Shown: positions 23,441 through 54,074 of the stretch, piece by piece
Numbering within the stretch: position 1 is the first letter of the stretch
How the letters are laid out: the number at the start of each line of letters is the position of its first letter
DNA from: a virus
Length of the DNA: 54,289 bases
Strand: one strand, 5' to 3'
Virus record (IMG/VR): IMGVR_UViG_3300027917_000056
Span: 1-54,289 of that record
Made by a program: the position numbers and the translations under genes
The notes under the pieces: model-generated
Told to the model about the DNA's origin: nothing
The model's input: only the letters and a program-made list of their open reading frames with translations
Databases searched by the model: none

Positions 23441-23594
23441 TGCTCTCAAATCTCCATTTGATGTTTGGATTGTCTTGCCATACTGCCGGCTGATCGTCAT
23501 ACATGATTTTCTCTGATATGCTGCATATGCCCAAAAAAGCAATGATCCCGGCAATGACTCCACCAAAGATAACTAATACGATCTTATTGATCAT
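23418..23594 (-). CDS. 58-residue single-span membrane protein
   Basis: The frame reads MINKIVLVIFGGVIAGIIAF and continues LGICS, one transmembrane helix at the N-terminus, then a short polar tail (YDDQPAVWQDNPNIKW). GGGAGGG stands 11 bases before the ATG, which also overlaps the stop of the upstream glycosyltransferase (ATGA); the end overlaps the next gene by 23 bases. Tight packing supports a real gene. It may anchor or assist the exported proteins; function unknown. Confidence 0.55.
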   Translation of the reverse strand: MINKIVLVIFGGVIAGIIAFLGICSISEKIMYDDQPAVWQDNPNIKWRFESNEKTMDE

Positions 23595-29324: not shown

Positions 29325-30010
29325 ATCTCTTCCCCCTTCTGTTCGAAAAATCTTTTCAGTCCAGGGTCCACGAAAGTTTCCGCCTTGCTGATCATGTTCT
29401 CATTCGTCATACGAGCCACGATCATATCCGGCAGGCCAAAGAGGCTAAAATCTGCTATCCTGCGGATCTCCTTTCGTCTGTCTGCAAGAAGGTCGTCATA
29501 AGATACCCTCAGCATCGGTCTACAGTCCTCCTGCTCATTCCACAATAGGAAGGCTTCCATTTTTCTTTTTATAAGGGAGACTTTCTCCCGGTAGTCGTCT
29601 ATCGTGAGGTTGGGTCTTGGATATTTCATCATTTTACTTTGTGCAATCTCCTCTAAAGACCTTTCCACGAGAATGTATCGAACATCGACATCAGGAACTA
29701 CCTTTCGAACTTCATCCATAGTCATCTTACTAACATCAATAAAATGAGGAGCTTTTAACCCAAGAATAAGGGGAGGAACGTCTCCTACTCTTTTCAAAAA
29801 CCATTGATAGATAGCTTCCCTTCTAGAGATTCCGAGTTGATCGTGATGATGGATGGCCTCGAAATATTCCAAATCCTCAAAATATCCTTTTGGATTCACT
29901 ACACTAGCCGGTTTAACACGAATTCCCATATTGACTCCCAGGTAGAAGAGAATTCCACCCACTGCACTACTTCCGCATGTACCTATGCCAGTGACAACAA
30001 TAAATATCAT
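29291..30010 (-). CDS. Sulfotransferase-like P-loop protein
   Basis: A 239-residue protein with IFIVVTGIGTCGSSAVGGIL at the start: a strand and a G-x-G-T-C-G-S-S loop for the PAPS phosphate, as in sulfotransferases. Later ILVERSLEEIAQS gives the R...S pair that binds the 3'-phosphate, and DDLLADRRKEI is a typical helix. It could sulfate a sugar. A GTG nine bases upstream is too near GGAGGGA, so ATG 30010 is preferred. A second such protein is at 53523-54074. Confidence 0.55.
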   Translation of the reverse strand: MIFIVVTGIGTCGSSAVGGILFYLGVNMGIRVKPASVVNPKGYFEDLEYFEAIHHHDQLGISRREAIYQWFLKRVGDVPPLILGLKAPHFIDVSKMTMDEVRKVVPDVDVRYILVERSLEEIAQSKMMKYPRPNLTIDDYREKVSLIKRKMEAFLLWNEQEDCRPMLRVSYDDLLADRRKEIRRIADFSLFGLPDMIVARMTNENMISKAETFVDPGLKRFFEQKGEEIWEETRFQDGA

Positions 30011-30609
30011 ATCAACCACTCTCCCTCCGGCACATCTGCCACAATTCTGGCCGGTGAGCCCATCACCACTTTCCTCGGTGGGACATTTCGAGTCACAACC
30101 GACCCAGCAGCCACAACTGAATTCTCTCCCACAATTACCCCAGGCAAAATAATTGCACCGGAGCCTATACGGACTGCACTTTCAATTTTGCACGGATCTT
30201 CTTGGTAATTCATCACCTCTCGACGAAGATGACATATCCGACGGTCATTGGAAGTCATTACACCTTGAGCCATAAAAACCTTGTCTCCGAGATGAACTCC
30301 TCTAGTGACATGACATTGACTCTGAATTACACAATCACTACCGATAGAAGAATCCCCTTCAAAAACCACAGAATGCCCTATCTTTGTTCTATCTCCGATC
30401 TTCGTCCTCGGTCTCATCACCGTACCATTTCCTACAAGCACATCGTCTCCTAAAACACAGCCGTCCTCAATCACCACAAAACTCCCCAACTGCACGTTCC
30501 TCCCGAACATGACGGTCGGGTATATGGTCCAGTTCGACCATGTGAGGTTCACATGGTGCAGGTGCAACTTCAGGTAGTCGTGCATCGACATTCTCGGCTC
30601 GTTCGACAT
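30007..30609 (-). CDS. Hexapeptide-repeat acyl/acetyltransferase
   Basis: A 200-residue protein made of left-handed beta-helix hexads: YPTVMFGRNVQLGSFVVIED, VLVGNGTVM, IGDRTKIGHSVVFEGD, then IGSGAIILPGVIVGENSVVA and VVMGSPARIV. The final GSPA and N-V-P-x-R/K pattern is that of WbbJ-like sugar acetyltransferases (acetyl-CoA donor). It probably O- or N-acetylates a sugar in this locus. The strong GAGGAGGGAG site fixes ATG 30609; the gene starts inside the end of the upstream fusion glycosyltransferase. Confidence 0.75.
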   Translation of the reverse strand: MSNEPRMSMHDYLKLHLHHVNLTWSNWTIYPTVMFGRNVQLGSFVVIEDGCVLGDDVLVGNGTVMRPRTKIGDRTKIGHSVVFEGDSSIGSDCVIQSQCHVTRGVHLGDKVFMAQGVMTSNDRRICHLRREVMNYQEDPCKIESAVRIGSGAIILPGVIVGENSVVAAGSVVTRNVPPRKVVMGSPARIVADVPEGEWLI

Positions 30610-33070
30610 CCCTTTCTCCCTCCTCTTTAAAAAATAATTCATTCAATACATTTACCCAATTCCTCGGGTCCAGATACTCTTTGGCCCACTCCCTGGCCGA
30701 TTGACCCATCTCATATCTGTATGCTTCTTTTCTTTTAAGAAGCTTCAATCCATACAAGAACCCATCATAATCTATGCAGTGGAATCCGGTATCTCCATGC
30801 TCCACTCGGTCCTTGGTTCCGTCTCTTGGCTCGGTAAGAACGGGCAAACCTGCTGCCAGAGCTTCTCCAACAACCCGAGGGAAGTTGTCCCGCCACATAT
30901 TCGACGTTCTGTAGAGGTAGACATGACCCCTGGACAAGAATTCCGGTACGGGCATAGAGTTCCATTCATGAAACACCATCCTTGGTTCATTTTTGAAAGC
31001 TTCCTTCAGTTCAGGGTGAGCTTCCATGAACTCGAACCGTACCCCCTTCATGTCTGACAAGAACCGCTTATAAAACTCTGTGTCCGGCTCTTTTATGATG
31101 TTCCGCTGCCACGCATGAATTTTATCTCCTCCTCTTGCACTGCGTTCTGTTACATATTTCCGGTAATCCCCAACACAATGTTTAAGCACTACAAGATCTT
31201 CGTCTCGTCCTCGTTTTCGTATCTTTAAAGAACTGAATATCTCCAACTCAATAGCTCCAGGTTGAATCTCAAGATCAAACGGTTCTGGGAACTTGATCAT
31301 ATCCCTGACGAACTCTCCCTGTTTCTCCTCACACTGAAAAATAACAGCCCGCAGTTTGCCTGTATCTGCTAAATGCTGCGCCTTGGGTAGTTGCCCGTTC
31401 ATCCAGTTGATGGCTATAGCCACCGAGGAACTTTTCTCAAATAGTTCCAACGTCTCTGGATTCTTCACAAAGTCGAAGATTTGATCATTAGCGTAAAAGA
31501 GAAGCGGAAGTCCTGGTTTCATGCTTTTCATCATTCGACCGTTTTTATATGTATCGATGGAATGAAGGAACTCACCAGGCACATATTGGTACTGCTCATG
31601 TACTTTGTCCCACGGATAAAAATTAACCTTACAGTCAGCTTCTATGAGCACCTGAGCAATTTTCAGGGCAGACTGTTCCCCTCCTCCTTTAGAGTTAAGA
31701 GAAGCCAACAGATTCAATTCCCTTCCAGTAAGATAGACCACGGTTCTCTCCTCTGGCTGCTTACGAACATAGACCACTGTTTTTTCCTCCCCTGTGATGT
31801 TTTTGAAAAATCGGTTGGCAACTTTCTCTCCGTATTTCAATCTCGGATAAGGTCTGGAATAGTAAAACTCGATTGCTTCCACAACTCGTTCTGGCGGCAG
31901 AATCTCCACACATGGAGGTGTCTTTCCATCCTCTCCATGTAAAACTGGATTCATACCGCTGTTTTCCTGTCTTTCTAGACAACTCTCCAAGGAGGTTTTC
32001 CAACATCCTACTTGAAAATAAGAGTCTTTCTCCTTCTCGTGATTTACAGAACATGGAAGCAGTCCGAGTGTATCCAAATATCTATGTCCTATGTACTGCG
32101 TAAACCATGCCGGTTCCCTAGCTCCGGCTACTACTACACATGCATTATCGAAGGCTGCGCTCATGTGCATGTGCATGGATACCAGACCTACGGAACCCTG
32201 CGAATTGTAAAACACGTTGACAAGATCCCTGATTCCGGTCTCTGGATCTTCGGTCTTTCCTACTAAGTCCACAACATTTTTAAGTTTTGGCAACGGATCG
32301 CCTTTGAGTTGCAACTGTACGAACTGAATTTTGTCCTTGAGTTGGTCCACCACATATTGCCATCGGTCCATCGGGTACATCTTTGCAGGCCATCCCGGCT
32401 CCCCACCTGTGGTAATAATCCAATAGGGCCCGTCTACTATAGGCTCTCGTTCGATCTCCTCCCGACTCATCCACACGTCCGGGCGAGTAAATCCAGGCTC
32501 TATTCTCACACCCAATTCCATTTCCATACTAAGCCTGAACGAGTTGACCATGTGCCAGTTGACTTGATTAGATTTGTTTGTAAGCCATTTTAATCCAATA
32601 TTTACGAAGGCCGATTCTTCCTGAAATCCAGGATCTACATATGGGTTATTGTCCCAGATATGTGCCGAACCTGTTTTCACACCGAGCCGCACATTTGGAA
32701 ACATCAATGCGAAGTCCCTCACACCAGCAGTCATAGCCAATATGTCCCCAAGTCTTTGCTTATCGTTCAGAAATACCACAGCTTCCCGATCCAGAGTTTC
32801 TTTCATTGGTCTATCAGCTTTCGTGTCTAAAAGCTGTGCTGGTGGAGATACTAACCCGTATTCTACTTGTGCCATTTCAATAAGTCGCGGTGCCGAGTTC
32901 TTGTTGCCGTGTACATGGTATCTACCTTCTGCATCCGTAACTACTAGATGCGAGTCTGGCAATCGTTCCCACAATGGCTTTCGATCTTCCGGTCTACAAA
33001 AAGGACAGGACATCGCTTTGTTTTGCTGACGTCTCTGTTTGGCTGCACTTTTTTTCTTAGAGCTGCTCAT
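30467..33070 (-). CDS. Fused glycosyltransferase: GT9-like plus GT4-like
   Basis: An 867-residue protein. After a basic start (SSSKKKSAAKQRRQQNK) with CPFC, residues ~90-360 look like a GT9/heptosyltransferase GT-B domain (KQRLGDILAMTAGVRDF, YWIITTGGEPGWPAKMYP). Residues ~440-810 look like a GT4 enzyme (LNLLASLNSKGGGEQSALKI, NFPRVVGEALAAGLPVLTEP with the E-x7-E type nucleotide-sugar motif). Two sugar-transfer activities in one chain suggest sequential additions. The last ~47 codons overlap the acyltransferase gene by 143 bases, an unusually long overlap. Confidence 0.65.
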   Translation of the reverse strand: MSSSKKKSAAKQRRQQNKAMSCPFCRPEDRKPLWERLPDSHLVVTDAEGRYHVHGNKNSAPRLIEMAQVEYGLVSPPAQLLDTKADRPMKETLDREAVVFLNDKQRLGDILAMTAGVRDFALMFPNVRLGVKTGSAHIWDNNPYVDPGFQEESAFVNIGLKWLTNKSNQVNWHMVNSFRLSMEMELGVRIEPGFTRPDVWMSREEIEREPIVDGPYWIITTGGEPGWPAKMYPMDRWQYVVDQLKDKIQFVQLQLKGDPLPKLKNVVDLVGKTEDPETGIRDLVNVFYNSQGSVGLVSMHMHMSAAFDNACVVVAGAREPAWFTQYIGHRYLDTLGLLPCSVNHEKEKDSYFQVGCWKTSLESCLERQENSGMNPVLHGEDGKTPPCVEILPPERVVEAIEFYYSRPYPRLKYGEKVANRFFKNITGEEKTVVYVRKQPEERTVVYLTGRELNLLASLNSKGGGEQSALKIAQVLIEADCKVNFYPWDKVHEQYQYVPGEFLHSIDTYKNGRMMKSMKPGLPLLFYANDQIFDFVKNPETLELFEKSSSVAIAINWMNGQLPKAQHLADTGKLRAVIFQCEEKQGEFVRDMIKFPEPFDLEIQPGAIELEIFSSLKIRKRGRDEDLVVLKHCVGDYRKYVTERSARGGDKIHAWQRNIIKEPDTEFYKRFLSDMKGVRFEFMEAHPELKEAFKNEPRMVFHEWNSMPVPEFLSRGHVYLYRTSNMWRDNFPRVVGEALAAGLPVLTEPRDGTKDRVEHGDTGFHCIDYDGFLYGLKLLKRKEAYRYEMGQSAREWAKEYLDPRNWVNVLNELFFKEEGERDVERAENVDARLPEVAPAPCEPHMVELDHIPDRHVREERAVGEFCGD

Positions 33071-33623
33071 TTCCCTTTTCTCCCTCCTCTTTTTTAATTC
33101 CCCAAAAATACAAATCCTGTGGAGTTGCGCTTGTAGAAAATTCGTATTTAGAGAAAACGTCCTCCACTTCTATGACTTGTCGAATGTCTTCTTCCGCAAG
33201 GTTCCTGTAATATTTCCCCCATTCCGGTAGTCCGTACTTATACAGTTTCCCTTCTTTTCTCTTCTTCCTGTGAATGGGCCTCCCTGTCGTAGCACAAGTG
33301 AAAAGAAACAAACCTCCGGGTTTAAGAAGCTCCACAATCCTCTGTAGACTTTCTTTCCAATAAAAATCGTGCTCAAAAACCTCGGTACAGATAATGGTAT
33401 CAAAGGGACCATCTTGCGGTTCATATTCATGAATGGGAGACACCACATCTACATTCCACCCATCCTGTATATCCACCCCGATATACTCTCCCTCCTCAAA
33501 TAACCACCGATTGTTCCCATTGAGATCCAAAGAACCAGCATCTAATACCCTTTTTCGAGAAAAGAACTCTGGAAGCCGCTTCTTAACCCTACTGCAAAAA
33601 ATCTTCTGTGCTTTATGCGCCAT
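33057..33623 (-). CDS. Class I SAM-dependent methyltransferase (type 11-like)
   Basis: A 188-residue enzyme with KRVLDAGSLDLNGNNRWLF, YIGVDIQDG, FDTIICTEVFEHDFYW and LLKPGGLFLFTCAT, the standard methyltransferase 11 order ending in a Glu/Lys-rich tail. It is the furthest-upstream gene of the glycan locus and overlaps the fusion glycosyltransferase start by 14 bases. Likely methylates a sugar or a related metabolite; no substrate clue is in the sequence. Confidence 0.65.
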   Translation of the reverse strand: MAHKAQKIFCSRVKKRLPEFFSRKRVLDAGSLDLNGNNRWLFEEGEYIGVDIQDGWNVDVVSPIHEYEPQDGPFDTIICTEVFEHDFYWKESLQRIVELLKPGGLFLFTCATTGRPIHRKKRKEGKLYKYGLPEWGKYYRNLAEEDIRQVIEVEDVFSKYEFSTSATPQDLYFWGIKKEEGEKGNEQL

Positions 33624-39012: not shown

Positions 39013-39841
39013 AAGCACTCCCCGGTATTGCTGGAAAAGCACCAAATCTACTCTCGTTGGCTCTGGCTATGCAATCCGTCATGGTCTTATCACACTCCGT
39101 CTCTCCACCTGAGTAACCGCAATCCGAATCCTTGAACTTCCACCGGCATATCTTGCGGCTGTATACGAAACTTGGAAATGGATCTACCAGTGGATTCCTG
39201 AGTCCGAGAGTGAATACTATCGCTTCGTCTGTTATTTCAGCACTCTTGACCTGAAACAGCTCATCAATTATTGGGTCAGCGGTCAGATCTCCGGCATACA
39301 CGATGAGAATACGCACTTGATCATTGATAAACCCTGCTCCTTTATTGACGTATCCTTCCATCATTCTGTCTGCATTGGATATGGCTAGTGCAAGACTCGG
39401 CACCTGATTGGTAGTGTCCACAAGAGTTTCAAATTCAAAGCTGAATCTCTCCCATAGTACAGTCTCGTAAGTGATGGATTCATTGTTTCGTGCATATCTA
39501 AACACAGCCTCTCCCGTTGGAAGTGGAGTAGTTACGGACCCTGAACCAGGGGAAACCGAATGGTCTCCATCCAAATCTTCTGAGTCCTGGAACGGTCCAC
39601 TTGTAATGTCTCCCGTGACCAGGTATCCTGTAGTGGCAGTTAGTTCCACTACAAAATGTACAGTAGCCGAGGCCCCGGAAGTACCGCCTGTGACAGTCTC
39701 TCCTTCATGAAAATTATCGGTCAGAGAATCATAGTTCACAATTTCCCAATCCTCATGGGTCAGTTGCAACAGCACAAGCCACGGATCGTCTGAGTCCAGT
39801 TTGTTTTTTGCAGTTATCAGTGCTACATCTGGGCTTCTCAT
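39002..39841 (-). CDS. Minor tail protein (gpL-like) with a Cys-rich end
   Basis: A 279-residue protein. The C-terminal region ICRWKFKDSDCGYSGGETEC, then KTMTDCIARAN and RFGAFP is the hallmark of lambda gpL-like tip proteins, in which the four Cys bind an iron-sulphur cluster. Residues ~43-62 carry FHEGETVTGGTSGASATV, also found in the tip protein. The middle is beta-rich (AVFRYARNNESITYETV). It links the tube end to the J-like tip. It overlaps the Ser-rich tube paralogue by four bases (ATGA). Confidence 0.75.
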   Translation of the reverse strand: MRSPDVALITAKNKLDSDDPWLVLLQLTHEDWEIVNYDSLTDNFHEGETVTGGTSGASATVHFVVELTATTGYLVTGDITSGPFQDSEDLDGDHSVSPGSGSVTTPLPTGEAVFRYARNNESITYETVLWERFSFEFETLVDTTNQVPSLALAISNADRMMEGYVNKGAGFINDQVRILIVYAGDLTADPIIDELFQVKSAEITDEAIVFTLGLRNPLVDPFPSFVYSRKICRWKFKDSDCGYSGGETECDKTMTDCIARANESRFGAFPAIPGSAFDF

Positions 39842-42618
39842 ATCTCTACACTCTCACTTGACTCACTACTTGTTGACGAAAGAGAAGCATTAAGACAACC
39901 ATCAGTAACTACAAAATTATCAGCCAACCATCTAGAAGTAGGAACCAGTCCATCATTGTGTGCGTATAGCCTCACTTTCACAGATCCAGTATTACCCAAA
40001 TCCTGAGTGCTTCCAATTTGATCCCATGCTCCAGACTTCCATCCATAAGCAGACACATTTGATCCAGACCGCTTGATACGCAATTTACCATCTATGGCTC
40101 CTGCGGTCTGTTCGTCATGATAACTCCATCCAGACACACAACTAGACCGATACAAATAGGTATAGCTATATTCTGTTGACCAATATCCCCATCTGCACAC
40201 CGCCATATCGCATCCGGCTGTCTGGAAATAAATCCGTAAATCATACCCAAACTGATTCTGCTCTGAGTAGGAAACTCTCTGGAAATCAATCTGCACATCA
40301 AAATCACCGTAGAAAATAGCACGAGTGATAACCCCATCTCCAGCTCCACCACCAACCTTGCTAAGACGTAGTTTGTTGTTTTGTATGTAAGGAGAGCCAG
40401 AGTATATGTTCCACAAATCAGGATCGGGAGCATCACTGGTCGTACCCGTAAAATCATCGTTAAGATAACACTGTGACCAAGAGCTGGATTCTGAAGAGTA
40501 GGACGATTCGCTAGATTTCGAGCAGTCAGAAGCCGACGATTCACTTGATGCACTACTCCAACTGTAACTGTATTCAGAAGTGTCCTCACATCCGATAGTG
40601 ATTTTGAAATTGTCCGCATCCCACGAACAATACGGCCATCCACCACTCGGCCATGAAGCTCCATTGACCGCTCGAAGTTGAATAGCGATATTTCCACTGG
40701 TGCAAGTATGCTCACTTCCGATCTGTTCCCAAGCACTGCCGGTCCAGATGTACGCAGTCCAATCATAATGATCAACGTTCCAGACCCGTTTGAGTCTAAG
40801 TTTACCGTTATTTTGACGAGTGAATCCTCTGTCCTCCTCGTCATAGCTCCAATCCCCACAATCCGTTCTGTACAAGAATCGGGATTTGTATTTCTGAGAA
40901 AATCCAATAAACCCAAATCCGTATCGGATATGTGCGACTGTGCAGCCAAGGCCAACGTCCTGAGCACCCATATCCCAATACCATGTGGAGCCTGCTGGTT
41001 GACTAACTCCGGTCCAATCCACTTGAACATCGAATTCGTCCGTAAGAACAAATCTTGTCTCCACCAAATCATAAGGACCAGTGGCAGTGCTGCCCTGAAT
41101 AAGATGTAACTTATCTCCGCTGGTAATGTATGGAGTACCCGCTGCGTAACTTTCCACAATCCTCCATGTACCGGGATCGGGAGTCTCACTGACACTAGCA
41201 GCCGAGAAATAGTCGTTACGCCAGCACATCGATTCTGAACTGGATACGGAGGAGAAGGATGATTCGCTAGATTTCGAGCAATCACAAGGCGACGACTCGC
41301 TCGACTCGCAAGACTGGGAGGACATGGAGCTGGTACTCGACGGACTGGACAAAAGTGACTCGGAACTGGTACTCGACAAACTCGATGCCGAACATACGGA
41401 CTCGGAACTTTGAGAGCTGTATGACGACGGACTTGAAGACATGCTGGAGTAACTTGAGGTCGAACACCAGGAGCTGAGGCTAGACTCACAGGACAGAGAC
41501 GAGGTACTGGAAAAACTGGACATGGACGACATTGAGCTGTATGAACTGAAACTGGACATGGACGACTTGGAACTGTACGAGTGAGACGAAGACGAGGAAT
41601 GTGGTCCCCACGGTGATACGGAAATTTGGGACTCACTTGATGAGTACGATCCAGGTTCGGAGGACCAGTCAAGTGGCCATGGAGATACTGACATACTGGA
41701 GGAACAGGAATAGGAAGACCAAGAACTGGAACATGAACAGCATGAGCAGGAGCACTCAGAACTGGAAGACTTTGACTGTAAAGATTCGGAACTGGGACTT
41801 GACTTGGAACATTGGCTGATGGATACCGAGATGCTACTTGAGGAGTAACTTGAAGACGAACAGCTAGAGGACGACGACGAGGAGGAGGAACGCGGCCCCC
41901 ACGGAGAGGCGGAAAACAGGGACGAAGAGGATTTTGAACAATCGCTGGCTGATGAAGAACTGCACGAACAGCAGCTCTTGGAACTCTCACATGAGGACTC
42001 TGAAGACCACGAGGAGGCGCAGGAGAGACTCGAATAGGAAGAAAAACTAGAGGCACAGGAAAAGGACGAAGAGGACGAGTAGCTATCGTCCCGGAACTCC
42101 ACTTGCACCACGGCTTGTCGGGTGTGAGCATAGATGTCCGTATGAGCGATCTGAGCCTGAGCTTGATGTATTTGAGCCTGATCAACCCTGTATTCAACCT
42201 GAGCGATGGCTTGGTATATCCGTACAATAGGTTGTACCAAAGTCCCCCGAGTGAATTTAAGTATAAGCTCCAGAACTCCATCAGGTCCCTCATGAACTAC
42301 TGTAACATTTGTCAGGGTAGCATCCACATCGAGCCGGTCCCCCACCCCTACATCCAAAGACAAGGCTGCTATATACCCATCTTCCGCAGAACTGATAATC
42401 TCGTCTATAATAGCCCGTTGTGTGGCGTCCCCCATGTCGATATAACCATGTACCTCGACATCGAACTCCTTCAGTATGGCCTTGTAGCGTCTCCAATCTG
42501 AACCAACTTTCGTATCCTCTGACACGTCCCGCCGGGTAGCTATGGTCCAGTGGCTTACTTGAGCCACATGAACGGCATCCAGTTTGACTTCCCCAGCATA
42601 TCCCTTGAATACAGTCAT
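39838..42618 (-). CDS. Tail-tube domain fused to Ser/Cys repeats and two lectin-like domains
   Basis: A 926-residue protein. Residues ~1-140 align by eye with the major tail protein at 48679-49095: EVHGYIDMGDATQRAIIDEI here versus INGFVDMGDTNGQRGLIDEV there. Residues ~180-464 are Ser/Cys repeats broken by PWGPHSSS-type insertions; ~465-676 and ~714-913 are two similar sandwich domains (DFDVQIDF, KLRLKR; DADNFKITIGC, LADNFVVTDGC). It therefore looks like a tube subunit that displays a decorated arm, perhaps at a minor ratio. A 733-residue alternative frame on the same strand is a shadow of the repeats. Confidence 0.65.
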   Translation of the reverse strand: MTVFKGYAGEVKLDAVHVAQVSHWTIATRRDVSEDTKVGSDWRRYKAILKEFDVEVHGYIDMGDATQRAIIDEIISSAEDGYIAALSLDVGVGDRLDVDATLTNVTVVHEGPDGVLELILKFTRGTLVQPIVRIYQAIAQVEYRVDQAQIHQAQAQIAHTDIYAHTRQAVVQVEFRDDSYSSSSSFSCASSFSSYSSLSCASSWSSESSCESSKSCCSCSSSSASDCSKSSSSLFSASPWGPRSSSSSSSSSCSSSSYSSSSISVSISQCSKSSPSSESLQSKSSSSECSCSCCSCSSSWSSYSCSSSMSVSPWPLDWSSEPGSYSSSESQISVSPWGPHSSSSSHSYSSKSSMSSFSSYSSMSSMSSFSSTSSLSCESSLSSWCSTSSYSSMSSSPSSYSSQSSESVCSASSLSSTSSESLLSSPSSTSSMSSQSCESSESSPCDCSKSSESSFSSVSSSESMCWRNDYFSAASVSETPDPGTWRIVESYAAGTPYITSGDKLHLIQGSTATGPYDLVETRFVLTDEFDVQVDWTGVSQPAGSTWYWDMGAQDVGLGCTVAHIRYGFGFIGFSQKYKSRFLYRTDCGDWSYDEEDRGFTRQNNGKLRLKRVWNVDHYDWTAYIWTGSAWEQIGSEHTCTSGNIAIQLRAVNGASWPSGGWPYCSWDADNFKITIGCEDTSEYSYSWSSASSESSASDCSKSSESSYSSESSSWSQCYLNDDFTGTTSDAPDPDLWNIYSGSPYIQNNKLRLSKVGGGAGDGVITRAIFYGDFDVQIDFQRVSYSEQNQFGYDLRIYFQTAGCDMAVCRWGYWSTEYSYTYLYRSSCVSGWSYHDEQTAGAIDGKLRIKRSGSNVSAYGWKSGAWDQIGSTQDLGNTGSVKVRLYAHNDGLVPTSRWLADNFVVTDGCLNASLSSTSSESSESVEI
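41225..42080 (-). repeat. Ser/Cys-coding repeat block of the tube-fused protein
   Basis: About 285 codons of SSxSS units with Cys at intervals and occasional SVSPWGPHSSS-type inserts. It resembles the blocks at 13595-17170 and 19095-19415, but is looser and richer in plain SSSS runs. The shared codon composition suggests common origin or recombination between the genes. Confidence 0.6.
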
Positions 42619-44078: not shown

Positions 44079-47000
44079 TTACCTCACTCCCAGCCCTTTA
44101 CGGGCACTTTGCCTGAATTCCGGATTGGTGAATAAAGATTCCAAAATCACATCCTGAATCTGCTTTTTTCCATCGTAACGGGTCTCTCCGGCTCTAGCGC
44201 GGAATTGAGTTCCAGTCTGATTGATCAAGTTCACCGTAACCTGTGCCGGTTCTCCAGCGTCTTCTTTTCTTCGTTCCCCACCAATGGGCCCCTGTTGTGC
44301 GGCCATCATTGCTCCCAAGGAAGCCATCGACACATTTCCCATACCACCAAAAGCCCCACCAATTTCGGGTTGTAGGAGACGAGAAATCTTGCCAACCTTG
44401 GCCTCCTGTTCCGCTCCCTCATGCTTGTATCCAGTGGACAGATCAAATGCACTACTGCCAGACATAGCATCTACTGGTCTGTAATCTTCTTTTATTGTTG
44501 GCGCAGCTACAACCCGCACCAGTTCGTCCGCAGCTCGTCCTTTTTCAAATATGTCTCTAGTCATGCTGCCATATCCAGCTTGTGCTTGACTTCTAACTGT
44601 ACGAATTTCGGCTACTGCGTCCCTTGCGTCTCTAATTTTCTTCCATGGATTAATCAAATAATTCACCAAGTCCCGATTTCTACGGGCGGACTCTCTTGGA
44701 ATTACCGCCTCTCCTTTTTGCAGAATGGCAGGAACCTCATCCGGCATTACCCGCACAGCTCCTGAGACCATAGCTCCTTGATGAAAATGCTGGACAGGAG
44801 TGACGGGACCACCTTCGACGATTCCTCCCTCATGAAAATAAGGACCTCCACCACCTATGCTAGGCAATGGAATAGGAGTCTTACCAAGATTCAACGTACC
44901 CGTGCCCCCGATGGTAGGAATTCCTTGTCCCATGCCCATAACATCACCACCACCGCTTCCACCAAATGCACCGAGTAGAGAACCCACACCCTTGATCATT
45001 TGAATAATCATCCACTCGACCAAGAGTTGGGCAATGATGTCCAAAATAGTGCGAATAACTGCCTCACCCATACGTGCAAATGCTTCATTCACTCCTTCCG
45101 TACCCATGATAATATTAGAGAAGGCTTGACTCATGGAATTACTAATTGAATTGGCTAAATGCTGAGATACCTCTGCTCCCCTACGGCCCCAATGAGACCA
45201 TTCCCACTCCACTTTTTTGAACCCTAGCCGCATTCCTTCGAAAAAGTTCTCATTGTTGTCTATCATCCAGTCAATGCGGGCTTCTTCCAGTTCCCGTATT
45301 GAAGCTCCCTGTATGGCTAATTGTTCAAGATGCCACTCCAAATATTCCAAGGTGTGTCGTTGCTTGAGCAAATTGGCTTCCCGTTCCGTGTCTGCAATCT
45401 CAAACAGCAAAGCCTTCCGAAGTTCCGCACTTGCCTTCTCCTGAGCACCCAGCTCTCGCAATTTCTCAACAGCATCGTCATACCGTTTCTGATTCTGTGC
45501 AATGAGTTCAGCAGTAACTTCCTCATTCGACCATATTACACTGTCTAGATAACCGAGCGATTCCTGCTTGATAGCTTCCTGTGCTTCCCGCTCTTTCTCT
45601 ATCCATCCTAACCGTTCTTCGTATGCCTTTTCTGCGGCCCATCGTTGATACTCGAACTGATCCATTACAATACGGTTGATTTCTTGTTGATATTCCCGTT
45701 GCTTGCCCTGAATGGTGTCGGACAATCGCTCCTGAAATCGTGCCATCTCTGCCAAGGAAGCCTGGAAACTTTGTTTCTGTACCTGTCCTTCGGAAGCTAC
45801 AATCCGAGTGCGTTGTTCCAAGCCTTTAAAAGAAGCAGCCAGTTTTTTGTCTTCAGACTCTATGTACTTCTCTGCAATTTCGGAGTACACGGACTTAGCT
45901 GAATCCAGTTCTGTTTGAAGGACTGTCTTACGCTCTTCCGTGGCTCCTTCCATCTCCCGGGTTATGCGTTCGATGGTTTCTATGGCTACTACAAACCGCT
46001 CCGCTTCCCGGCCTGCTCCTCCCCCATAAGCCGAGGTGATGATTTTACGAATTTCTTCGGATTCTTCTTTTGCCTTACGAACCCATTCCTCCAGGTCCCG
46101 TTCCCGTTCTTCAGATCTGCGCTGTATTTCGTTAAGTTCGAACTGGGTCTCGCTCTGTGTAAGCCGTTTCAAGTCCTCCGTTACACCAGCCCGGAAGTCC
46201 ATGAACTGCTCGTAACTAACTTTTTGGTCCTTGAGAGCTTTGTCTAGCAGTTCGGCTTTTTCTTCCTGCACATAAACGGACAGAGTAACCGCTTCCTGTT
46301 CAGCTAAACCGTGTCTCTGAAGAATGGCGAGTTTGTCTTGCTCGTACTTAGTCCAGTAGGCCAGTTGTTCTATGACGGTTTTGCCAGTGAGTTCATCCAT
46401 GTCCTTGCGGAGTTTTTCCATCTCCTCAAGAATGGCTTTTCGCTCCGCAGCCTTTATTTCAGCTATTTCTTTGGCTTGTGCCTCTTCGAAAAGTTCCCGT
46501 GGAGGACCTACTGGTTCCTCTGGGGGACCGCCACGAGCCATGCGATAAGGACCCTCTGCGCGTTCTCTAGCCCGTAATTCACGGAGGAACCGAGCATGGT
46601 TGATTGCCTTCAATTCCTGTTTCTTTAGCTCTTCTGTTACACCAGTAGCACTACGAATGAATGTAGAGAAGGCATCGTCTGAGGTTAGAATCACTTCTCT
46701 AGACCAATCCCCAAAAGCCTGAATCCAAGCAGGAACATTGTCAACCAGCTTACCTGTCACACTCTCGGTTGCTCTGATAGCATTAGCTAAAAGATCCCAA
46801 GTTACAGCAGTCTTCTCTACAGTCATAGCCCTAACAAGTTCAGGAAAAGCCTCCTTTATCCTTTGGATAAATTTCGAAGTTTCGCTCTCAGCTTCCTCCG
46901 TGACTCTACCCGTGGCTCTTCTGGTCCTTTCTGGGATATTTTCTACAAGCGTGATCAGGTCTGCTAAAGCCTCTCCAACACCAAATACTGACCTGACTAC

Positions 47001-47930
47001 TTTCATAATACTGAGAGCAGCTTCATCCGCAGTCCGGATTGTTAATGTCATCGCCGAACCAATCAGATCAGCCCATTTCTGAGCAGATCCAGTTTCAAAA
47101 CTCTTCTCCATAGCTTCTGCATGTCTGCCAAGTATTCTCTCCGTCTCCTCCAGCACCCCTCCCTGAGTGCCAATCTGACGGACAAACTCTTTCGTATAGT
47201 TTTTTATAGTTTCTGTAAGTCCACCGTAAGTGCTTTGTATTTTTTGTGAGAACCCACCGTATCTTTCTTTCAATCCTTCCAGTACGGCAGCTATGACTTT
47301 TTGGGCATCCAGATGGAGTTTACCTACATCCGCTAATTGAGCAGCAGTAAGACCCATTTTCTCCTGTAAAATTTCAAATACTGGGACACCTGCCATTCGG
47401 AGTTGATCCATCTCTTGAGCCATCAATCGTCCCTTGGCCTGTATTTGTCCCAATGCCCTAGCAACCCTATCCATTCCATCAGCCTGTAGCCCGAGGGCTA
47501 GTACGGTATCGACCAGAGTGGTCATATCATCAATGGTGGGCTTCAAGCCCATGGCCCGGAGCATCTTGAAGGAATCAATGGCTTGTTCCGTATTGATTGG
47601 CATTTTCAGGGCCCATTTATTCAACTCTTCAAACCAATTCGTACCTTCACCCTTCGTCAGCATGTCTAAGGAATCCCGCATTCGCTCGAATCGGTCTGCG
47701 GTCTCTACCACACTCTTGCCGAGAGCAACAATAGAACCAACTCCCACGGCAGCAGCTAGGCCCATAAGTTGAGTTCGCACTCCCATGATCCCACCCTGCC
47801 ACCGAAGCATACTCCGATGATTGTCTTCTACCTGACCCCGGAGATTATTGAAATTTCTCTCCACACGACCCAGAGCAGCCGAGCTTTGATCTCGAACTAT
47901 GATAGGTATGTTCAATCTTCTTTCAGCCAT
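44079..47930 (-). CDS. Tape measure protein
   Basis: A 1283-residue tape measure. The start (LNIPIIVRDQSSAALGRVER) is followed by a hydrophobic helix (LMGLAAAVGVGSIVALGKSV) and a helical domain (LRMAGVPVFEILQEKM). Long Glu/Lys/Arg coiled coils run ~480-900, then a membrane-active stretch (MIIQMIKGVGSLLGAFGGSG) and the family end motif GGGGPYFHEGGIV...GEAVIPRE. At about 0.15 nm per residue it predicts a tail near 190 nm. It follows the chaperone genes, as in lambda. Confidence 0.9.
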   Translation of the reverse strand: MAERRLNIPIIVRDQSSAALGRVERNFNNLRGQVEDNHRSMLRWQGGIMGVRTQLMGLAAAVGVGSIVALGKSVVETADRFERMRDSLDMLTKGEGTNWFEELNKWALKMPINTEQAIDSFKMLRAMGLKPTIDDMTTLVDTVLALGLQADGMDRVARALGQIQAKGRLMAQEMDQLRMAGVPVFEILQEKMGLTAAQLADVGKLHLDAQKVIAAVLEGLKERYGGFSQKIQSTYGGLTETIKNYTKEFVRQIGTQGGVLEETERILGRHAEAMEKSFETGSAQKWADLIGSAMTLTIRTADEAALSIMKVVRSVFGVGEALADLITLVENIPERTRRATGRVTEEAESETSKFIQRIKEAFPELVRAMTVEKTAVTWDLLANAIRATESVTGKLVDNVPAWIQAFGDWSREVILTSDDAFSTFIRSATGVTEELKKQELKAINHARFLRELRARERAEGPYRMARGGPPEEPVGPPRELFEEAQAKEIAEIKAAERKAILEEMEKLRKDMDELTGKTVIEQLAYWTKYEQDKLAILQRHGLAEQEAVTLSVYVQEEKAELLDKALKDQKVSYEQFMDFRAGVTEDLKRLTQSETQFELNEIQRRSEERERDLEEWVRKAKEESEEIRKIITSAYGGGAGREAERFVVAIETIERITREMEGATEERKTVLQTELDSAKSVYSEIAEKYIESEDKKLAASFKGLEQRTRIVASEGQVQKQSFQASLAEMARFQERLSDTIQGKQREYQQEINRIVMDQFEYQRWAAEKAYEERLGWIEKEREAQEAIKQESLGYLDSVIWSNEEVTAELIAQNQKRYDDAVEKLRELGAQEKASAELRKALLFEIADTEREANLLKQRHTLEYLEWHLEQLAIQGASIRELEEARIDWMIDNNENFFEGMRLGFKKVEWEWSHWGRRGAEVSQHLANSISNSMSQAFSNIIMGTEGVNEAFARMGEAVIRTILDIIAQLLVEWMIIQMIKGVGSLLGAFGGSGGGDVMGMGQGIPTIGGTGTLNLGKTPIPLPSIGGGGPYFHEGGIVEGGPVTPVQHFHQGAMVSGAVRVMPDEVPAILQKGEAVIPRESARRNRDLVNYLINPWKKIRDARDAVAEIRTVRSQAQAGYGSMTRDIFEKGRAADELVRVVAAPTIKEDYRPVDAMSGSSAFDLSTGYKHEGAEQEAKVGKISRLLQPEIGGAFGGMGNVSMASLGAMMAAQQGPIGGERRKEDAGEPAQVTVNLINQTGTQFRARAGETRYDGKKQIQDVILESLFTNPEFRQSARKGLGVR

Positions 47931-47936
47931 GTACGG

Positions 47937-48320
47937 CTACCTCTTTGCTAAAACTTTCGCTTGTGGATTCACCGTTCTGGTAATTCCTTTTTGTCCGGGC
48001 TGCTTGTTGAACTGACTCGTTCGATAGGACAGAAGATAATAAAACACCCCTGTAAACAAACGCTCGTAATCTTCTTCCTCAACACCCGAGGCCCGGATTG
48101 TAAGATCAATGGCATTAAAGTCTATTTGTCCGGTCATTCCGTTTATAGCTCCCGGTAGGGCTTTTCTAGCCAATCCATATGTCAAAAGATTTTCCCCCAT
48201 TACACGAGGTCGCTTGCACTTGTCACAGGGGGGTTCTTTGCCTTTCCTCGTGTAGATTTGGTCGCAGTTGGAGCACTGGAGCTTTGTGCGGTCTCCTTCC
48301 CATTCTGCGACCTCAACAAG
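47937..48320 (-). CDS. -1 frameshift extension of the tail chaperone (T-part) with zinc ribbon
   Basis: Read from a -1 slip at 48320-48326, this frame starts LVEVAEWEGDRTKL and gives QCSNCDQIYTRKG, PPCDKCKRPRVM, then LTYGLARKALPGA... to stop at 47937 (127 residues). CxxC...CxxC spacing makes a zinc ribbon, far more protein-like than the in-frame reading of the same bases. The ATG at 48200 within it has no ribosome site, which argues that this is made as a fusion (103 + 127 = 230 residues). It is the equivalent of lambda gpGT and binds the tape measure during assembly. Confidence 0.7.
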   Translation of the reverse strand, partial: LVEVAEWEGDRTKLQCSNCDQIYTRKGKEPPCDKCKRPRVMGENLLTYGLARKALPGAINGMTGQIDFNAIDLTIRASGVEEEDYERLFTGVFYYLLSYRTSQFNKQPGQKGITRTVNPQAKVLAKR

Positions 48321-48628
48321 TTTTTTACCTGTTCCAGTTTGGAAGCCATCAACTCATTTATCTGTATGATTAGTTCCTGCCGGAGTGCATACTCGTACCG
48401 AAAAAGGTAGAGCTTGTTTTCTTCATTGCACTCAAACACTTCCCCGGTATCCAGATCCTCAATCCCTTCCCAACTCTCCACACAGTACATAAACATGGTC
48501 TTCTCTACATCGATAGGGTTCACGGCTCCTCGGTCATATTTAATTTCATCATATGGAAAAGGTCTTAAGTGGAACTTTGCGTCCCCAATTTCGATCTCCT
48601 TGCCTACTAGCTTTTTGCTGATCTTCAT
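48200..48628 (-). CDS. Tail assembly chaperone (gpG-like)
   Basis: A 142-residue protein, beginning MKISKKLVGKEIEI with a strong GAGGAGGGAG site. An N-terminal beta region is followed by a helical body (LYLFRYEYALRQELIIQINE). After residue 103 the sequence becomes low-complexity (AQSSSAPTATKSTRGKAKNP), where the -1 frame overlaps. It sits between tail tube and tape measure, the place of lambda gpG. The unshifted form should be the abundant product. Confidence 0.7.
   Translation of the reverse strand: MKISKKLVGKEIEIGDAKFHLRPFPYDEIKYDRGAVNPIDVEKTMFMYCVESWEGIEDLDTGEVFECNEENKLYLFRYEYALRQELIIQINELMASKLEQVKNLLRSQNGKETAQSSSAPTATKSTRGKAKNPPVTSASDLV
48320..48326 (-). promoter_or_regulatory. Programmed -1 frameshift site, A AAA AAC
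   Basis: On the minus strand codons 101-103 of the chaperone read GTA AAA AAC, so A AAA AAC is in the exact X-XXY-YYZ phase for a -1 slip. The -1 frame has an upstream stop at the TGA inside AATGAGTTG and is then open to 47937; the zero frame stops at 48200. A second in-phase C CCC CCT lies nearer the zero-frame stop but would miss the first CxxC. A downstream pseudoknot was not established. Confidence 0.65.
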
Positions 48629-48678: not shown

Positions 48679-49095
48679 TTAGCTTGACTCGACGTAGTAC
48701 ATCTGGTCATGTCCAACCATTGTCATAGAAACCCGCACTACGTCATCATTGCCTGGGTTGTTAAGAGAAACGGCTGTAATAACGGCACTTCCGTAGAAGT
48801 AGCCATCGGTCGTTCCCTCATCAACCTCAAAACGCACGTCAGCGACAACACCATCCGTACCATCTGCAAAAACTTCGTCGATCAATCCCCTCTGTCCGTT
48901 CGTGTCTCCCATATCGACGAATCCATTGATAGTACCATTCCAACCCCTGGACCCCTGAACAGTCTGCTTCCACTCGTTACCAATGCAAGTAACGTCGATT
49001 GCAGTGCCCTCAAGATTCAAGGTATAGTCCGTGAGATTGATGACAGTGTTCGCACCGACAGCGCACACGCCCAACTTACCACGAAAGAACGCCAT
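48679..49095 (-). CDS. Major tail (tube) protein
   Basis: A 138-residue beta-rich protein, beginning MAFFRGKLGVCAVGANTV, with DYTLNLEGTAIDVTCIGNEW, INGFVDMGDTNGQRGLIDEV and DVRFEVDEG. Size, position between tail-completion and chaperone genes, and the terminator-like hairpin after it fit a tube subunit. It resembles the N-terminus of the Ser-rich protein at 39838-42618. It should be the most abundant tail protein. Confidence 0.7.
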   Translation of the reverse strand: MAFFRGKLGVCAVGANTVINLTDYTLNLEGTAIDVTCIGNEWKQTVQGSRGWNGTINGFVDMGDTNGQRGLIDEVFADGTDGVVADVRFEVDEGTTDGYFYGSAVITAVSLNNPGNDDVVRVSMTMVGHDQMYYVESS

Positions 49096-49122: not shown

Positions 49123-49572
49123 TCAAGTCAGCGTAATCGGATATTTGCCGGTGAAAGTAAGTAAACACCCGCCAAACTCGTCTTGGCTCACTGCCTCGCA
49201 TGGCCTCAACTGAAAAGCGATTACCCCTTCTCCGAGAGAGGAATCCGCCCGAATTGCCCTCTCTATGTCGCTCCCTAATTCCATGGCTCTTTTCAGGGCG
49301 TCATCTTCACTCTTGACGTAACCGTGGATCTCGATTTCGAACTCCACCATATAGTTAGCGTCAACAGTGACCTGCTCGACATCCCAAGAGACTGTAGGAA
49401 CGCAAACGAACGGGTACACGCTTTGCTCGTTGATAGCACGAGCTCCCAAGACGATCTGATTGTGTTTGAGCCGATTGTTGTAGCCCGTTGAACCGTCAAT
49501 ACGGTTCCGGAGTTGATCAATCAGCGCATCCACAACATCTTTCATTCTGTTATAAGTGGTAGTGTCTGCCAT
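49123..49572 (-). CDS. Tail completion protein (gpU-like)
   Basis: A 149-residue protein: helical start (MKDVVDALIDQLRNRIDGST), then beta strands (VEFEIEIHGYVKSEDDALKR) and CEAVSQDEFGGCLLTFTGKY. The helix-plus-sheet layout and position between connector genes and major tail protein are those of tail terminator/completion proteins that end tube growth. Family inferred mainly from order. Confidence 0.55.
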   Translation of the reverse strand: MADTTTYNRMKDVVDALIDQLRNRIDGSTGYNNRLKHNQIVLGARAINEQSVYPFVCVPTVSWDVEQVTVDANYMVEFEIEIHGYVKSEDDALKRAMELGSDIERAIRADSSLGEGVIAFQLRPCEAVSQDEFGGCLLTFTGKYPITLT

Positions 49573-50340: not shown

Positions 50341-50925
50341 CTAACGGGAGTCCCTTTCTATGAGCATAGCAAAATCTGGTAATAGGTTATCTTTCAAGTT
50401 CTTGTATGAAATAGTGCCCATCCCTTGAGGTTGTGCCACAGAGGCTTTATCCCATTTGTGATCCTTGGCCTGTTCGAACCAGTGAGCCGCTTGCCTTACC
50501 ATTATTTGCTTAGACCCCGAAGGAATAGCACTGGCCCCTGTCTCTGTGTACCCAGCCGTATAGGACACCTTTATGGACTGATTGCCGACATGAAAATAGG
50601 AGTTGTAATATATAACTCCGTGTACATAATCCACCCGGTAGTCCTCTGCCGGAACTAGGTGATCACTGGTCCACTGCCAGTCCGGATCGTCCCACATCTG
50701 TACTGCTGGAGTGGTGGCTACAGGATAACCCCTAAGAATTACCACGCTCTGGTCCTCATAAGCGTTGTAATATTCCGTAAGTGCCGCCTGCTCTACTACG
50801 GTCTTGCCAGTAAGTTCCTTGTACAACCCTTCTACCCCAACAGTAACAGCCTCAATCAGATCGTTGTTCTCAGCGTCCTTTATGCCGAGTTCCAGTTTTA
50901 CGTCCTCTTTAGTGATCAGGGCCAC
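50341..50925 (-). CDS. Head-tail connector (gp6-like)
   Basis: A 194-residue protein starting at GTG 50925 after AGGAGGAAAGGTT. ALITKEDVKLELGIKDAEND-type start, ELTGKTVVEQ, EDYRVDYVHGVIYYNSYF, SIKVSYTAGY and helical IMVRQAAHWFEQAK match connector proteins of the HK97 gp6 type (L...K..L.I......D..I). It joins the portal to the tail. Upstream head genes lie beyond the two glycosyltransferases and the window end. Confidence 0.7.
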   Translation of the reverse strand: MALITKEDVKLELGIKDAENNDLIEAVTVGVEGLYKELTGKTVVEQAALTEYYNAYEDQSVVILRGYPVATTPAVQMWDDPDWQWTSDHLVPAEDYRVDYVHGVIYYNSYFHVGNQSIKVSYTAGYTETGASAIPSGSKQIMVRQAAHWFEQAKDHKWDKASVAQPQGMGTISYKNLKDNLLPDFAMLIERDSR

Positions 50926-51949
50926 AACCTTTCCTCCTGTCTATTTCATATTTCATTAAATCGACAAGCCTCTGAGCCGACTCTTCCCAAGTAAAATACT
51001 TAGCAATTCTCTCATGGGCCTTCCGTCCCCGAGCTAGGGCTTCGTCATAATGTTTAGGAACATAATCCACCCACCCGGCTAGGTCCCCAACCTCGGGCAT
51101 TCCAAGCCTGGACCACGCCCGAACGTGCCGACCATCAGACCGGGGAAAAGTGAACTCAGCATTTCCAATAAAATAACCCAATGGGTAGCCAACCTCCTCA
51201 TCAAAATAATCGAGCATCCCCCCATAGTGAGTAGCCACACATGGCAATCCTGTTCTCATAGCCTCGGCTAGGGTGAGTCCAAAACCTTCCCCCCGGCTAG
51301 GGAACAGAAAACAATGGGCAGAATGATAAATCTCCACCATGTCCTCAGTGGGCACGTCCCGAGAGTCCACTATAAGATTTTTGCCAAACGTTACCTTGTG
51401 GTCGTACTGAAGACCACGGGCTCCGGCAGTTTTCAGATACAACTCCACGTCACTCCGGTCTCTCATCTTCATCCGATCCCACACCCACATAATCTCCTCA
51501 TACCCCTTCCGCTTGTTAGGAGCCCCAACCCACAGGAAACGGAATCGCTCCCCCGAGGGCGGGAGGCACCGAAGTTTGTAGGAGAATACTGGGTCCACAC
51601 CATGATGCACTACGTGCAAAGGTTTATATGGCAGCTTCTTCTTAAACACCCCTCCAGCCCATGTAGAAGGGGTGAGGAGATAGTCGGCCTTCTCGGCCTT
51701 CCACCGATAGATGTCCGGCAAATCCAGCCCCTCGAACATGGTAAAGAGCCAGTTGAATTTATCTGGCACAGGATCGAACCTCTCCGCACTCACAATAGTC
51801 AAGGCATCCTCTGCGTCTGGGTCCAGAGTGGCAATCTTGGCCACCTCAGCCCGAAGATTCTCGTTATGGGTATAGTACCCATACACGTTAGGTCCGTACA
51901 TCATATTCTTCGGCTTCTCGGACTTGGTTGCCCAGTGAATCCGAGTCAT
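50909..51949 (-). CDS. GT4-type glycosyltransferase (paralogue 1)
   Basis: A 346-residue GT-B enzyme: LHVVHHGVDPVF, FRFLWVGAPNKRKGYEEI, and SAHCFLFPSRGEGFGLTLAE-AMRTGLPCVATHYGG, the family 4 nucleotide-sugar region (EGFGLTLAEA). It is closely related to the next gene. Phage genes of this type can add sugars to DNA, virion or host surface; here it interrupts the usual head-connector order. GAGGAGGGAAAGCC precedes the ATG; the end overlaps the connector gene by 17 bases. Confidence 0.75.
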   Translation of the reverse strand: MTRIHWATKSEKPKNMMYGPNVYGYYTHNENLRAEVAKIATLDPDAEDALTIVSAERFDPVPDKFNWLFTMFEGLDLPDIYRWKAEKADYLLTPSTWAGGVFKKKLPYKPLHVVHHGVDPVFSYKLRCLPPSGERFRFLWVGAPNKRKGYEEIMWVWDRMKMRDRSDVELYLKTAGARGLQYDHKVTFGKNLIVDSRDVPTEDMVEIYHSAHCFLFPSRGEGFGLTLAEAMRTGLPCVATHYGGMLDYFDEEVGYPLGYFIGNAEFTFPRSDGRHVRAWSRLGMPEVGDLAGWVDYVPKHYDEALARGRKAHERIAKYFTWEESAQRLVDLMKYEIDRRKGCGPDH

Positions 51950-52946
51950 GGCTTTCCCTCCTCTTCAGCCATTGGGTTTTAAGTGTACTGACCAGCGATT
52001 CTGCCGACCTCTCCCAAGTAAATTCATCTCGAATTCTTTGATGTGCCTTCCGGCCTTTCTCCAGAGCTTCATCATAATGAACAACTACATAAGACATCCA
52101 CTTAGCCATCACTCCAGGGTCGGGAAAGCTAATGTCGGTATCCCACCACCCGAGATCGTCCCGTCCGATAAACCGCACTCTGGATTTCTTTATTTCATGA
52201 GGAATTACATAGCCAACCTCCTCATCGAAGAAGTCGGCCACTCCGGTATAGCTAGGAGATATGCAGGGCAGACCCGTCCTCATGGCCTCGGCGAGAGTCA
52301 ACCCAAATCCTTCCCCCCGGGTAGGAAACAAAAAGGCGTGGCTTCGGTGATATAGGTTTAGAAGGGCTGCCCTGCTTATATTAGATCCGTTTACTATCAC
52401 ATTACCCATTTGTTTTACACCTGGATGCCGAGTGGTTTTGATATACAACCTAGCGTTCCTGAGTGTTTCGAATCCCGCATGTTTCCATGCTGCTATTACT
52501 TCCTGAAATCCCTTTCTTGGGTTGGGAGCACCCACCCACAAGAACTGAAACTTGCCCTTAGGCATCTTTCTTTTCTTGTAAGTAAAAAACGGCTCCACAC
52601 CATGAGGCACCACGAATATCTTCTCCTCATCGAAATACTTAGCGAACAACTTCTTCACCCACGTAGAAGGAGCCAGAAGGAAATCTGCCTTTTCCATGTT
52701 CTCCAGGTAGAACTCAGGAACCTCTTCACCCTCAAACATAGTAAAGAGCCAGTTGACCTTCTCTGGCACTGGCCGAAAATTCTCCGCTGGTATAATGTGG
52801 ATAGCATCTTCATACTCATCCCCTATTGGGCAAATCTGCTTTGTGTACTTTACTAGGGTGTTGTTGTGTACCATGTATCCATAAGCATTTCCAATGCCGT
52901 CCTGATACATTGCCGTGGCCCAACACAGTCCGAACTCCTCTATCAT
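51888..52946 (-). CDS. GT4-type glycosyltransferase (paralogue 2)
   Basis: A 352-residue enzyme with FVVPHGVEPFF, FQFLWVGAPNPRKGFQEVIA and SHAFLFPTRGEGFGLTLAEA-MRTGLPCIS, matching its neighbour motif for motif; the two are tandem paralogues. GAGGAAATC before ATG 52946 sets the start, with an overlap of four bases to the upstream gene. The last 62 bases overlap the start of the paralogue. Confidence 0.75.
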   Translation of the reverse strand: MIEEFGLCWATAMYQDGIGNAYGYMVHNNTLVKYTKQICPIGDEYEDAIHIIPAENFRPVPEKVNWLFTMFEGEEVPEFYLENMEKADFLLAPSTWVKKLFAKYFDEEKIFVVPHGVEPFFTYKKRKMPKGKFQFLWVGAPNPRKGFQEVIAAWKHAGFETLRNARLYIKTTRHPGVKQMGNVIVNGSNISRAALLNLYHRSHAFLFPTRGEGFGLTLAEAMRTGLPCISPSYTGVADFFDEEVGYVIPHEIKKSRVRFIGRDDLGWWDTDISFPDPGVMAKWMSYVVVHYDEALEKGRKAHQRIRDEFTWERSAESLVSTLKTQWLKRRESHDSDSLGNQVREAEEYDVRT

Positions 52947-53569
52947 GATTTCCTCAGTATAAATTGGTGTGTGTCTATCTCTCCCCCAGACCATCCCTGC
53001 TTATCCACTAGGTACTCGTCCACTGCTTGTTTGGCTCCACGACATTGCGGAAATCCATAATCATCACAAATAATCACTCCTCCTGAACTCATTCTCGGGA
53101 AGAAAAAAGAGAAGCAATCAAGAGTAGACTGATAAATGTCTACGTCCACATGAACAAAGCAATAATTCTGATAAGGTAGTCTATCTGCACAATATGGAAA
53201 CATCCCCTTGATTAAAGCCACGTTCGGTCGATTTTCCTGAAACCATTTCTTTATATCCTCAAATTGAGCAACATCCGAAAAGTCTCCTTCCTCGTGTTCG
53301 TCCAGACCTTTTATCGGTTGTGGCATTCCATCAAAGGTGTCAATCCCAAACACAGGCCGATCATCGAAAATGGCAGAAATATGATTCAGGGAACCACCAA
53401 AGTACACACCTATTTCCACTACACCACCTGGAACTATATAACCACGAACTCTTTTGGCTTCCCGTTTGATAACGTCCAAACGCACATGATCAATAGCCGT
53501 ATAAATGCCCGGGAGCTTAGTCTCAAGCTGCGACTGCTTGTTTTGGGTAGTGTTTGGCATCTGCATCAT
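52943..53569 (-). CDS. TylF-like O-methyltransferase (macrocin family)
   Basis: A 208-residue enzyme with GGVVEIGVYFGGSLNHISAI, FGIDTFDGMP, FSDVAQFEDIKKWF, VHVDVDIYQSTLDCFSFFFP, GGVIICDDYGFPQCRGAKQA. The DVDIY.ST and ICDDYG.P..RGAK.A motifs are the metal-binding signature of TylF/MycF sugar O-methyltransferases. It most likely methylates a sugar added by the adjacent GT4 enzymes. AAGGAG precedes the ATG. Confidence 0.8.
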   Translation of the reverse strand: MMQMPNTTQNKQSQLETKLPGIYTAIDHVRLDVIKREAKRVRGYIVPGGVVEIGVYFGGSLNHISAIFDDRPVFGIDTFDGMPQPIKGLDEHEEGDFSDVAQFEDIKKWFQENRPNVALIKGMFPYCADRLPYQNYCFVHVDVDIYQSTLDCFSFFFPRMSSGGVIICDDYGFPQCRGAKQAVDEYLVDKQGWSGGEIDTHQFILRKS

Positions 53570-54074
53570 TTATAATCTCCTTACGGAAATTAAAGCCCGT
53601 GACTGCCTCTAACTGTTTCAAGGCCCTTTCAGGAGCTATAAACATGAGACTCGAATCGATGATTATAAAGTCTGGTCTGTGTTCTACTAAAAACCTAAAT
53701 ATATGTGTGAGTTGTGGCACTACCCGACATTCCGCATCTTCCCTTTTATTCTGATGTCCCTGATGCACCTTGGAACGTGCCATAGCTGCCCATTCTCTAA
53801 ACATGACAATCCAAAATGTTTGGCATCCACATTCCCGAAATCTAGTATCTATCCTTGATAGATCAGGCATATGTCCTGCATGAGGCACACTACGGCGGAA
53901 CACAAATCTGGATTCCTCACTATGCTTACTCAAGTCTGCCTTTCCCTTTAGTACCTGATCCAACGGCTGATTATGACTTGCCTGTCCAATACATCCGGCT
54001 TCTATCAACAAACGAGTCATTAATCTTGTGCCGGAAGATTCTGGTCCAACTACCAGATACGCTTTTTTCGTCAT
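53523..54074 (-). CDS. Sulfotransferase-like P-loop protein
   Basis: A 183-residue protein beginning KKAYLVVGPESSGTRLMTRL, an S-S-G-T-R phosphosulfate-binding loop, with FVFRRSVPHAGHMPD and VMFREWAAMARSKVHQG (R...S pair). It is short for a sulfotransferase (usually 250-300), so a minimal or divergent member. It overlaps the methyltransferase gene by 47 bases. Confidence 0.55.
   Translation of the reverse strand: MTKKAYLVVGPESSGTRLMTRLLIEAGCIGQASHNQPLDQVLKGKADLSKHSEESRFVFRRSVPHAGHMPDLSRIDTRFRECGCQTFWIVMFREWAAMARSKVHQGHQNKREDAECRVVPQLTHIFRFLVEHRPDFIIIDSSLMFIAPERALKQLEAVTGFNFRKEIINDADAKHYPKQAVAA

Follow-up and report, generated by a model that had tools for sequence, protein, structure and literature searches.

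In phage lambda, the tail assembly chaperones G and GT bind the tape measure protein, T binds the tube protein, and G and GT occur at a ratio of about 30:1 (PMC5009743). The heptamer A AAA AAC serves as a shift site in the haloarchaeal virus HCTV-2, and in E. coli, which may not be the host of the virus studied here, it supports shifting far less readily than A AAA AAG (PMC5009743). In phage Loki, AAAAAAC has been reported beside the chaperone stop (PMC5313236). T parts that carry DUF1799 (PF08809)/phrog_680 occupy the same T position in phi80-like, T1-like, Dhillonvirus, Vibrio Marilyn-like and Synechococcus phages. Their DUF1799 domain is C-terminal, and several of them follow an A AAA AAC slip. 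When we inspected phi80-like, T1-like, Vibrio and Pseudomonas phages, DUF1799/phrog_680 lay at the T position, where the preceding slip was in most cases A AAA AAC or G GGA AAC. In the records of isolated phages these T parts are usually annotated as hypothetical or as 'tape measure'; PHROG 680 and 17368 are themselves labelled 'tail length tape measure protein', and the members that we checked are frameshifted chaperone T parts.

The window analysed here covers the record of an uncultivated virus and is 54,289 bases long. Between its major tail protein and tape measure genes lies what is very probably a G/GT-type chaperone locus of a siphovirus-type phage, with programmed -1 frameshifting and a T variant that carries a four-cysteine (Cys4) module. 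All features of the locus are on the minus strand. PHROGs and Pfam matches give the gene order tail terminator (49123-49572), major tail protein, chaperone locus, tape measure. The upstream neighbour, the major tail (tube) protein gene (48679..49095), matches phrog_1407 (1.2e-12), and the downstream tape measure protein gene (44079..47930) matches both PF20155 TMP_3 (60.7 bits, above the cut-off) and phrog_12798 (3e-23). When the layouts are compared, the locus shares with lambda G/GT the arrangement of tube, G, slip, T and tape measure with a -1 slip near the G end, as well as a short product plus a fused long product, here predicted from the reading frames. Unlike in lambda, the window slip is A AAA AAC and the window T holds the Cys4 module. 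The tail tube protein, used as query, retrieved no close relatives.

Some other genes of the window also caught our attention. A Ser/Cys-rich ORF of 926 residues at 39838-42618 (-) has a start (VHGYIDMGDATQRAIIDEI...) that by eye resembles that of the tube protein (INGFVDMGDTNGQRGLIDEV...; 48679-49095), so it could encode a second tube-like protein, a decorated one. Putative virion proteins at 13492-18435, 18758-19885 and 39838-42618 (-) contain very long repeats of the SSLSSESVCSESS type that are rich in Ser and Cys. Judged by eye, 23591-33623 and 50909-54074 (-) hold glycosyltransferase, methyltransferase, radical-SAM and acyltransferase-like repeat protein ORFs, and one group of these adjoins the connector/tail genes, just upstream.

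The G part (48320..48628; residues 1-103) forms a tail assembly chaperone domain common to both products. The zero-frame product falls in phrog_313 'Tail assembly chaperone' (E 2e-4), as do the G parts of the five relatives described below; the T part lies outside this family. Foldseek searches with a model of G (pLDDT 79) returned annotated pre-tape-measure/tail assembly chaperones as the best matches, with probabilities of 0.99-1.00 and E-values above 0.001. PDB sequence and fold searches gave no match. One cysteine of G, Cys67 (48428-48430), belongs to a motif resembling I-E-C-[TN]-x-E-N-K and is kept in 6/6 aligned G parts; a simple pattern recovers this motif in 42/60 of the viral clusters introduced below, among the matches listed, and the classical G parts compared have other residues at this position.

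The zero-frame ORF (48628..48200) comprises 142 codons and ends at a stop at 48200-48202. The original prediction placed AAAAAAC at codons 101-103 in a -1-competent phase, and this is exact in the sequence (48320..48326, read from 48326 to 48320). The reading GT(A AAA AAC) specifies Val-Lys-Asn; codons 102 and 103 of the zero frame are AAA and AAC. As had also been stated, the -1 frame is open from just upstream: its upstream stop lies 11 codons before the first T codon, and it then remains open to 47937. A ribosome that slipped by -1 would continue with CTT GTT GAG... until the stop at 47937. The T part (47937..48320) thus contains 127 residues plus the stop, and translation confirms to the residue the 230-residue slip product (GT) originally proposed. 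Its predicted junction peptide spans LEQVKN-LVEVAE; the longer junction peptide is LEQVKNLVEVAEWEGDR. The zero-frame tail of the short product (48203..48319) overlaps the T reading frame, and its 39 residues are rich in S/T/A/K/P, in agreement with the low-complexity character first ascribed to it.

Relatives were gathered by protein similarity, without using the heptamer, and represent five lineages (L002/L003, L014, L016, L017 and L020) whose T parts are 21-27% identical to that of the window. A AAA AAC is present in the same phase at the G end in all five (...RLKN, ...LEKN, ...EVKN, ...QLKN and ...LAKN), and the spacing CX2C-X12-CX2C is identical in the six lineages, window included. The relatives have a tail-tube-like ORF upstream and, where the locus is long enough, a tape-measure-like frame downstream. 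Five independent relatives therefore retain the heptamer, its phase and all four cysteines. No bacterial (prophage) relative was detected when genome contigs were scanned with the T alignments, a search of plasmids was empty, and tblastn of the fused GT protein against isolated phages returned chance matches only.

Folding of the RNA downstream of 48320 revealed a predicted stimulatory hairpin (48260..48312) that starts 7 nt past the heptamer, with an 8-bp GC-rich base (GGUCGCAG/CUGCGACC) enclosing 37 nt. Equal stability was reached in 0/300 shuffles. The same test gave 0/300 as stable for L014 and 3/300 for L020, and detected no hairpin in L002, L016 and L017. Position, family, fold, heptamer conservation and this hairpin together back the reading of the locus as a G/GT chaperone with a slip.

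The Cys4 module (48216..48275) places cysteines at T residues 16, 19, 32 and 35, which are GT residues 119, 122, 135 and 138. As predicted, the -1 frame encodes CSNC (GT 119-122) and CDKC (GT 135-138); the Cys-containing peptide is LQCSNCDQIYTR. It is followed by a DUF1799-like C-terminal domain (48045..48215; about T residues 36-92). The window T is divergent, and Pfam and PHROG searches with it on its own gave no significant match (12.4 bits for Pfam DUF1799, cut-off 26). The first link to DUF1799 came from weak matches of the L002 T part (E 0.04-9), which, where inspected, fell exactly at the T position of known phages. Against DUF1799 itself, the T parts of L002 and L014 score 31.1 and 25.6 bits (cut-off 26), and against phrog_680 they reach 7e-7 and 9e-8. 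Among the matches listed, 28/58 Cys-containing T parts match DUF1799 and 26/58 match phrog_680. A profile-profile comparison of six Cys-containing T parts with five classical ones aligned the two groups from the last cysteine on (95%, E 3.6e-8). In addition, tblastn of the L102 Cys-containing T part hit 947 phage records, almost always with the stretch after the cysteines among the matches listed; tblastn against isolated phages with either the L020 T part or a consensus T found nothing, or a non-tail gene. Given the profile alignment and the matches of the relatives, T consists, as far as homology can tell, of a Cys4 module and, after it, a DUF1799-like domain, and in the window this domain is recognisable only via relatives.

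Classical T parts differ from that of the window in having a short, often acidic segment without CX2C pairs ahead of DUF1799, and we saw no Cys pairs among the T parts of isolated phages that were examined. A further family, PHROG 23549 (function unknown), combines the two regions: its profile aligns from position 8 on with the stretch that holds Cys4 in the new relatives, and positions 44-101 correspond to DUF1799 in classical T parts. It bears no tail chaperone or frameshift annotation, and the window T does not match it even at E 5.

To see how far this arrangement extends, we scanned IMG/VR with a pattern consisting of the heptamer, 35-50 nt, and CX2C-X12-CX2C in which Pro stands two residues ahead of the third Cys; the scan recovered at least 120 stretches. 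Together with the six lineages, the scan loci form at least 60 clusters at about 60% identity. Since the pattern imposes both heptamer and cysteines, the independent evidence from the scan is limited to phase, upstream G frame and hairpin. Among the matches listed, 69 of 80 loci have the heptamer in -1 phase and 11 do not, whereas one third would be expected (p about 1e-22), and 67 of the 80 have both a G frame of at least 70 codons upstream and a T of at least 60. A predicted hairpin that starts 5-9 nt past the heptamer and beats at least 95% of dinucleotide shuffles is significant in 27/60 clusters, compared with 4/60 at a control position 90 nt further on (among the matches listed). The Cys-containing T part is thus not rare, as it lies behind A AAA AAC in at least about 60 divergent viral clusters; with PHROG 23549 also covering it, the description of this T part as unusual does not hold. 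We additionally observed Cys4 T parts in L045, L074, L080 and L088 that have AAAAAAC in the T frame itself, so the joining of G to T in these loci must rely on another slip site or phase.

These results bear on the possibility that both the heptamer and the open -1 frame arose by chance. Several other ORFs of the window, mostly spurious, do contain heptamers that resemble slip sites and precede long open -1 frames. Nevertheless, conservation, the phase excess and the hairpin excess among the matches listed argue against coincidence here, as does the homology of the -1 frame, through the relatives, to DUF1799/phrog_680 T parts. We consider a chance open frame exceedingly improbable and rejected it as refuted by the relatives.

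T could alternatively be a separate gene, translated from the ATG at 48200 by stop-start coupling into an 87-residue, DUF1799-like and Cys-free protein with no need for a frameshift. The G stop and this ATG do overlap as TAATG, with the 87-residue ORF coming next, and in many isolated-phage records T is annotated as its own ORF. The Cys4 module, however, lies upstream of ATG 48200, and its conservation across divergent lineages indicates that it is translated; the window T residues upstream of 48200 can be aligned with the T parts of the relatives. Given that ATG, GTG and TTG are all absent from the window T frame ahead of residue 41, which follows the last Cys, the module is beyond the reach of a standard start. 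The same frame lacks these codons at or before the first Cys in 48/60 clusters, window included, among the matches listed. Moreover, in 30/60 of the clusters listed the zero frame meets a stop codon right behind the slip, far from any TAATG-type overlap, and the long zero-frame tail of the window is the exception. Translation of T as a separate gene only was rejected on account of the conserved Cys4 module upstream of ATG 48200, and it seems to us very unlikely.

Returning to the frameshifted T, we considered what its cysteines might do. Paired CX2C motifs with constant spacing are the usual zinc signature. Since CX2C-X12-CX2C has identical spacing in the six lineages first collected, the four-cysteine module plausibly holds one zinc ion. 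The zinc ribbon originally proposed for it did not find support: AlphaFold2 modelled T with low confidence (pLDDT 63) and placed helices at both CX2C pairs, and Pfam zinc-ribbon models score far below cut-off. Because the model is both weak and helical at the pairs, we do not claim a ribbon. This helical character would also suit a real frameshift with cysteines that do not bind zinc, serving instead as a disulfide switch or holding an Fe-S cluster that regulates tail assembly, and the conservation of a further cysteine in G points the same way. On the other hand, the constant CX2C spacing favors zinc, a disulfide is unlikely in the cytoplasm, and such weak Pfam matches as T has are to zinc families. 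We consider non-zinc cysteines fairly unlikely. Searching the open-licence literature on zinc in tail chaperones yielded no relevant paper.

For the preferred G/GT reading, we infer slippage in vivo, its rate, zinc binding and binding of T to the tube protein. Most ribosomes would complete the 142-residue G product, and a minority would stall at the hairpin 7 nt downstream, slip by -1 at A AAA AAC and produce the 230-residue GT. By analogy with lambda, G would coat the tape measure protein and the T end would recruit tail tube subunits, with the tube polymerising to tape length. CX2C-X12-CX2C at the T start would most likely bind one zinc and stabilise a small T domain, and the Cys4 module would replace the short acidic segment that precedes the DUF1799 domain in ordinary T parts.

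The mechanism itself is known, and the Cys4 T part is widespread and seems to be undescribed in the open-licence literature; being widespread, it is not a curiosity of the window phage alone. What had been an overlooked open frame becomes a defined part of the tail-assembly machinery. AAAAAAC together with CX2C-X12-CX2C between tail tube and tape measure provides an annotation rule for G/GT pairs of uncultivated phages. A bolder and rather doubtful proposal is that these loci represent a large undescribed class of tail chaperones with a zinc-binding T, in which zinc availability could gate tube recruitment and tail assembly; if true, the metal would be carried only by the frameshifted minority product. 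The putative built-in metal module offers a handle on the role of the T domain, which is structurally poorly known, and cysteine mutants could uncouple T folding from frameshifting.
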